Source of the DNA: Bradyrhizobium sp. sBnM-33
Lineage (GTDB): Bacteria > Pseudomonadota > Alphaproteobacteria > Rhizobiales > Xanthobacteraceae
Direction of reading: 5' to 3'
DNA length: 64,000 nucleotides
Assembly (NCBI RefSeq): GCF_032917945.1
Contig: NZ_CP136624.1
Coordinates: forward strand, 8,060,001 to 8,124,000
A program made the translations under genes and the position numbers. The first letter of the stretch is position 1, and every line of letters begins with the position of its first letter. This document shows positions 29,701-30,369 of this stretch, piece by piece. The notes beneath the pieces are model-generated. The model had not been told where the DNA came from and ran no database searches. It was given only the letters and a program-made list of their open reading frames with translations.

Positions 29701-30369
29701 GACGTGCCCGGCGTCGCTGTCGTGGTCGAAAGGGCCGTGGGCACCAAATGCGCGCGGTCATGGAAGATCCTGCCCACGGTCGGCGAAGACGCCGAGTATC
29801 CCGACGTCTCCCCGCGCGACGCGCAGGCCTTGCGGGAATGGAAGGCGCTTGCCGAAGGCCATAAGCCGGCCGATGCAGTTGAACAGGCTGCCAAGCCTCT
29901 TGCGTTGGTCGAGAAGCAACACGTGGAGCAAGAGCAGCAATCAAAGGAAACGCCCGAGCAAGCCAGTTCGGGAGATGTGCCGGCTGCCACGCCAGACAAC
30001 AAAGTCAGGGCCAAGAAGACTTTGGAAAACACGGAGGCTGAGGGAGCCGAAAGACCGGTCAAGGCCAAGAAGGTCGCAGTGACCAAGAAGGCTGTCGAAG
30101 CCGAGAAGGCCATGGAAGCCGAAGCCGAGAAGCCCAAAGCCAAAAAGACCAACGCTAAGGCTAAGAAGGCTAAGAAAGCCATCGCCAAGAGAGCCAAGGC
30201 CAAGAAGGCTGCCAAATCCAAAAAAGCTGCTTCGGTAACAAAGAGAGCTAAAAAGGGAGCTAAGAAGAAAGCGGTAAAGAAGGCGGACAAGAAAAAGGCT
30301 GCCAAGAAGGCCGGAAGAACGTCGTCTGCGACCGCTTCGAAAAAGAAGAAAAAGAAGAAGGCGAGATAA
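26800..30369 (+). CDS. ileS: Isoleucyl-tRNA synthetase with Lys/Ala-rich C-terminal tail
   Basis: IleRS charges tRNA-Ile and edits valine. The 1189-residue protein has the HIGH motif in [13 protein letters not shown], the CP1 editing domain ([26 protein letters not shown]), KMSKS in [11 protein letters not shown] and the anticodon-binding helices. The usual C-terminal zinc finger is reduced to KCARSWKI. After residue 1015 (ALREWK) a tail of about 174 residues follows; from about 1068 it is made mainly of Lys and Ala, like a histone H1 tail, ending in seven lysines, then Ala-Arg. Most alphaproteobacterial IleRS stop near residue 1000. A stretch at about 27500-27960, within the editing domain, has lower GC and different codon use. 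lspA follows directly. Confidence 0.97.

Follow-up and report, generated by a model that had tools for sequence, protein, structure and literature searches.

A lysine/alanine-rich C-terminal tail on isoleucyl-tRNA synthetase of some Bradyrhizobium, a possible RNA-binding appendage

The ileS tail and described lysine-rich appendages

A lysine tail is carried by the valyl-tRNA synthetase (ValRS) of myxobacteria (NCBIfam PRK14900), and LSKxxLKKxxK is the hydrophobic and basic helix motif of the extensions of class IIb eukaryotic synthetases. According to the available part of PMC9976931, the lysine-rich extension of yeast AspRS increases the efficiency of aminoacylation, with the loss of some specificity. 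The appended domain of human LysRS is disordered and binds tRNA non-specifically, and this binding is weakened by lysine mutations; prokaryotic counterparts are stated to lack this domain, as well as some of the other extensions of eukaryotes (both from the available part of PMC6213541). In trypanosomatids, GluRS, HisRS and IleRS contain lysine-rich segments of putative role (PMC8319005, in the part available). Non-specific binding of DNA is ascribed to lysine-rich regions in histone-like proteins, topoisomerases and Ku (PMC6821194, in the part available). In the open PMC literature, outside which most subscription papers lie, no description of a lysine-rich extension was found for bacterial IleRS or for the MetRS of Bradyrhizobium. 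The author of the preliminary description of this DNA also knew of no such tail on an IleRS.

The window analyzed here is a stretch of 64,000 nucleotides from Bradyrhizobium sp. sBnM-33, whose genome of 9.18 Mb is a single contig. The features are listed in Table 1. The ileS frame opens with ATG at 26800 and closes with TAA at 30367–30369, and its 1,189 codons include no internal stop. The protein scores 783.5 bits against TIGR00392, the model of bacterial isoleucyl-tRNA synthetases with a curated cut-off of 621.4, and thus belongs to this family. Its alignment to the solved IleRS structures 8c9e and 1ffy reaches residue 1010 (query without Met).

Table 1. Features of the ileS–lspA region and of two other genes for Lys/Ala-rich proteins in the same genome
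Feature	Position	Strand	Remarks
ileS, isoleucyl-tRNA synthetase, 1,189 aa + stop	26800..30369	+	TIGR00392 match, translation
Degenerate C-terminal zinc-knuckle region, one Cys left	29746..29820	+	KCARSW...SPRD; found with or without tail
Linker, residues 1016–1067, 52 aa, after ...LREWK	29845..30000	+	A10 E7 Q6 P5 K4 D3 R0
Lys/Ala tail, residues 1068–1189, 122 aa	30001..30366	+	K45 A32 R6 E9 D1; end KKKKKKKAR
AAGG in the last Lys/Ala codons, probable Shine-Dalgarno of lspA	30358..30361	+	8 nt before GTG
lspA, signal peptidase II	30370..30888	+	ORF; starts with GTG immediately after the ileS stop
MetRS with N-terminal Lys/Ala extension of about 135 aa	G000:C1:5496903-5498843 (window's genome; L166 1504-3444)		KKAKKA match
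Adenylate kinase with C-terminal Lys/Ala tail	G000:C1:4630028-4630906 (L247 329-1207)		NF010381 (PRK13808), 462.7 bits, cut-off 426

The preliminary description placed the end of the core at about residue 1015, followed by a linker of 50 residues and a tail of about 120 residues (1068–1189) with seven lysines and Ala-Arg at its end. The translation agrees with this, down to the last nine residues, the linker being two residues longer. The net charge of the tail is +41 over 122 residues, with 37% Lys and 26% Ala, only two Pro and only one Leu. The comparison with histone H1 made in the same description holds for the Lys/Ala-rich composition, but not for family membership: the last 179 residues (1011–1189) have no match in Pfam or NCBIfam at E 1, either to a histone H1-like or HC2-like family or to any other. 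As a lysine-rich terminal appendage of high charge, the tail resembles the tRNA-interacting extensions of eukaryotic type. It is not classed as one of them because the class IIb helix motif is absent, the lone Leu being the only one in residues 1068–1189.

Distribution and history of the tail

Among 146 Bradyrhizobium genomes sampled, 145 have a match to ileS. When an alignment beyond query residue 1,130 of 1,218 is taken as the mark of the tail, it is carried by at least 24 of these 145 genomes, among the matches listed. The remaining listed matches end near 1,047–1,081 or are fragments, some of them short of the C-terminus; one genome (G097) is absent from the listed matches. The gene of G043, aligned to 1,081, is tailless on reading (L118). 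Tailless Bradyrhizobium IleRS end with EWKALGVSV or similar sequences. The named loci, which are the best 80 of 500 and are enriched for carriers, one of the six scan patterns sitting in the linker, comprise 16 tailed and 63 tailless genes and one gene cut before its end (L086); L042 is cut inside the tail. Further stretches from the genus (L115–L134) are tailless in 17 of 20 cases. L116 and L117 are tailed, and L115 (G074) is not scored. Both L116 and L117 are from G137, a single assembly with two different tailed copies of ileS. Comparison of Bradyrhizobium IleRS C-termini, proposed in the preliminary description, thus places the tail in several strains and not in that of the window only.

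In a sample of the family (248 genomes, 207 matched at E 1e-300), none of the matches listed from other genera extends beyond residue 1,039, and all 20 C-termini read from the family sample (L135–L154, mostly long or odd frames) are tailless. In an order-wide sample of 150 genomes, with 137 matched including two fragments without the C-terminus (G400 and G468), the window's genome alone passes residue 1,041; this count is based on alignment, several open frames exceed the alignment, and a tail that does not align at any residue could escape it. The tail region has 26 matches among 5.8 billion proteins (7,990 candidates scored), each of which has a domain set of the IleRS type. In its own genome, among the 150 scored of 219 candidates, the tail query has no match at E 10 other than itself, giving no donor gene there; the scoring of low-complexity sequences limits both searches. 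Two more divergent tailed IleRS, P0123 and P0141, are seen in a separate protein search. The public IleRS and MetRS matches are named plain synthetases or ligases where they are named.

Two public IleRS, P0009 and P0052, shift frame near the C-terminal end and run into the lspA region, and P0052 terminates in an LspA domain. These shifts are probably assembly frameshifts.

It had been considered at the outset that the tail could be absent from the protein owing to a frameshift error or an early stop, or that most relatives could have it and it could be described already. A frameshift or assembly error is ruled out, since other assemblies again show the tail in frame, with GTG or TTG adjoining its stop codon. 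Nor do most relatives carry the tail, as counted above.

A block at 27450–28500 (IleRS residues about 217–567) covers the part of ileS for the CP1 editing domain. Its identity is 58–89% to near relatives, which mostly reach 88–99% in the neighbouring parts of ileS, and 96–100% to B. australiense (L034). The nearest proteins for the block are P0011 (100%) and then P0028 (82%). The block looks like an imported editing domain, and the core tree that includes it groups the window with B. australiense.

Based on the tree of the ileS core, the presence of the tail switches at least four times, and four times again in a tree without the imported block. The tail as the mark of a single clade is rejected (AU test, p 0.0003, quick tree without the imported block). 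One gain would require nine losses, a rough count in a script-rooted tree where the common ancestor of the carriers spans all 93 rows. In both lspA and the downstream M16 peptidase gene, the tailed L049 and L103 are in starred groups of three with the tailless L090; L094 is left out of the M16 peptidase tree.

The tails compared below are 25 distinct sequences, from 24 loci and the window, with 161–201 aa after EWK. Their ends are alike in DNA: AGA TAA is seen in 22 of the 25, and GTG or TTG follows the stop immediately in 24. Unless the start of lspA imposes these letters each time, the likeness favours common descent with losses, or exchange of this segment by recombination. In the main clade, the window's tail is by eye closer in its middle part to L006 and the L036/L088 group than to its L041-like neighbours, whereas the flanks are closer to those neighbours. 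This mismatch suggests exchange.

Possible roles of the tail

It can be proposed, tentatively, that selection maintains the encoded tail as a probably disordered polycation on an otherwise normal IleRS, and that it would most likely raise the non-specific affinity of the enzyme for RNA. A polycation of +41 at the C-terminal end of a tRNA-charging enzyme would be expected to bind RNA non-specifically. Affinity would be raised for tRNA first and perhaps for ribosomes, as with the lysine-rich extensions on eukaryotic synthetases. The benefit would be in charging or retention, on the premise, as we infer, that the tail is translated, disordered and bound to RNA. What can be read from the sequences is the frame, a charge that appears to be kept over sequence, the presence in some Bradyrhizobium only, a polycation at the N-terminus of MetRS and the conserved DNA before lspA.

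The 25 tails contain 38–55 Lys and have net charges of +32 to +47. Their identity to the window's tail is 0.33–0.88, and the lowest pair in the set is at 0.26. Neutral codon changes were simulated from the window's tail, with 200 runs at each of two G+C settings, in a model without slippage. At 0.70 identity the mean net charge is +22 to +23 (maxima 36 and 38), at 0.55 it is +17 (maxima 31 and 35), and at 0.45 it is +14 to +15 (maxima 32 and 28). A lone tail with +32 at about 0.7 identity is inside this neutral range and unexceptional. Retention of charge rests on the whole set and on the four most diverged tails, L045, L103, L049 and L094 (identity 0.33–0.39; net +40, +40, +40 and +34), if they descended from a common tail. 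The tails are related and hence are not independent draws, and the comparison with drift does not apply to the diverged tails if they arose separately. In 12 pairs, the dN/dS of the tail is 0.23–0.59, below 1 in all 12, and that of the preceding 800 codons is 0.05–0.16; the imported block distorts the core values in the three of these pairs that include the window. Taken together, the tail appears to conserve its charge, and its sequence weakly.

It is also conceivable, though rather unlikely, that the tail is tolerated low-complexity sequence, grown by repeat slippage and recombination and without function in IleRS. The tails change fast in sequence and vary in length without loss of frame, some single tails are inside the neutral charge range, most of the genus genomes examined have no tail, and adenylate kinase is Lys/Ala-tailed as well. 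However, the set as a whole keeps its net charge and its number of Lys above the neutral averages, which slippage could also bring about by renewing Lys/Ala. The dN/dS below 1 in every pair argues in the same direction, for maintenance.

The proposal of an RNA-binding tail draws on a second synthetase. In the window's genome, MetRS has a Lys/Ala extension that precedes the catalytic core; it has no Pfam match, and the best NCBIfam MetRS model starts at residue 134. The extension is aligned in 35 of 36 genus genomes sampled, in 34 of them from its first 15 residues, and is not aligned in G032. Outside the family, in 24 genomes of the same order, the MetRS alignment starts at query residue 109 or later in 22, at residue 3 in G392 and at residue 71 in G406. 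In all 30 genus loci read, an in-frame GTG is invariant and has AGGA[AT] upstream of it. The second GTG is considered as the start of MetRS because several loci show GTC, GTA or GTT at the position of the first. Counted from the codon before GTG, the extension is 128–159 aa long in these 30 loci, with 30–47 Lys and a net charge of +38 to +50. The loci span genomes with tailed and with tailless IleRS, and no difference in MetRS charge between them is visible by eye. A protein search with the extension finds 193 proteins, and all 120 of them that are listed carry the MetRS domain PF09334. This N-terminal extension across the genus is new here.

KKAKKA has 11 matches in the window's genome and none in the reversed control; KKxxKK has 62 matches, versus 43 in the control. 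Among the matches to the two patterns, all of which were read or placed, there is no synthetase other than IleRS and MetRS; a synthetase whose lysine-rich end contains neither pattern would be missed. The ends of ValRS, LeuRS and four PF00587 proteins were read and show no such extension. The other matches are adenylate kinase, identified with its NCBIfam model, endonuclease III, a Ku-like protein, the end of a DEAD-box protein and small H1-like proteins, all identified by reading, and unrelated frames. Because adenylate kinase and the proteins read as endonuclease III and Ku also have lysine-rich ends, the genus is seen to add such sequence to various kinds of protein.

The frames L155, L157, L159 and L163 are located near G000:C1 1252256, 2847546, 4968974 and 8137773. 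Three of the four are very small and Lys/Ala-rich, with 22–30 aa from ATG, and one, of about 119 aa, is H1-like. L163 is a free H1-like protein with the same composition as the tail.

Raised affinity for tRNA or polysomes is the best fit, given the similar polycation on MetRS in this genus, and RNA is preferred over DNA mainly because two synthetases of one genus have such ends. Several facts stand against RNA binding. The tail of adenylate kinase is similar, and this enzyme does not need RNA; proteins of the DNA-binding type also have lysine-rich ends; most Bradyrhizobium IleRS examined are tailless; and the class IIb helix motif is absent.

Anchoring of IleRS to the nucleoid or DNA, in the manner of H1-like proteins or of topoisomerase I or Ku with their lysine tails, is unlikely, although the composition of the tail, the non-specific DNA binding described for lysine-rich regions (PMC6821194, in the part available) and the presence in the genome of L163, alike in composition, are all consistent with it. 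There is no evident reason for a synthetase to be on DNA, and MetRS has the feature too. A polycation that binds RNA and one that binds DNA look the same in sequence.

The end of ileS has a constraint of its own. AAGGC[CG]A[AG][AG]TAA, followed directly by GTG (23 loci) or TTG (one locus), is seen in 24 of the 25 tailed loci, of which 23 were counted by a script with AAGAAGG and L038 was added by eye; L103 differs. The last codons of the tail probably double as the ribosome-binding site of lspA, and it is probably the translation of lspA that preserves the KKAR end, rather than a function in IleRS. Tailless loci are arranged otherwise: when the start of lspA is estimated from alignments, the gap between ileS and lspA is little or none, or about 125–380 nt. 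It is improbable that the whole tail exists for lspA, as an A/G-rich end of ileS serving for ribosome binding and translational coupling. The conserved junction agrees with this, but it accounts for about five codons and not for 160–200 residues, and tailless genomes have lspA without the tail.

In many tailless Bradyrhizobium (L025, L031, L047, L053, L061 and others), the gap between ileS and lspA contains palindromic repeats of the GTCGTCCC type. The gaps with these palindromes are roughly 125–200 nt, where tailed loci have no gap.

A role of the tail in making up for the zinc knuckle that the C-terminal part of IleRS has lost is very improbable: only one Cys is left in the window, where KCARSW stands at the place of KCERCW in 1ffy (alignment printed to that point), but the same Cys is missing in the tailed and tailless Bradyrhizobium and the other family members read, and the sole extra Cys is in L117, which is itself tailed. 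The named loci read have KCARSW; in the further genus and family stretches, KCTRSW is seen once and KCARCW once (L117). Because tailed and tailless genes alike lack the Cys, the loss of the knuckle looks older and mostly uncompensated.

Comparison with known systems

Ordinary bacterial IleRS, represented by 8c9e and 1ffy, share the core with the window's IleRS up to residue 1010, and the tail is unmatched in them. Bacterial topoisomerase I, Ku and histone-like proteins are similar to the tail in their low-complexity, lysine-rich composition (PMC6821194, in the part available). Those regions, however, belong to DNA-binding proteins, and none on an IleRS is mentioned in the available parts of the literature found. 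The adenylate kinase PRK13808 (NF010381) of the same genome also has a C-terminal Lys/Ala tail, but it is not an RNA enzyme, and it was missed by the IleRS tail query (150 of 219 candidates scored).

The RNA-binding reading brings the tail closest to the eukaryotic synthetases, for which appended RNA-binding extensions are usually described. The extensions of yeast AspRS, human LysRS and the trypanosomatid enzymes are likewise lysine-rich, positively charged appendages on a synthetase core, in the parts of their sources available. Here, in contrast, the appendages are bacterial, are found on IleRS and MetRS, consist of about 130–200 aa of mostly Lys/Ala and have no class IIb helix motif. It can be speculated, with more doubt than for RNA binding itself, that the C-terminus of IleRS and the N-terminus of MetRS separately evolved tRNA-gripping appendages as a bacterial counterpart of the eukaryotic extensions. 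These might hold the synthetases on tRNA pools or polysomes, and the IleRS version might have been gained, lost or exchanged several times. Bradyrhizobium offers a natural test of such extensions, in which some species have the IleRS tail, their relatives are without it, and the MetRS extension is nearly genus-wide in the sample.
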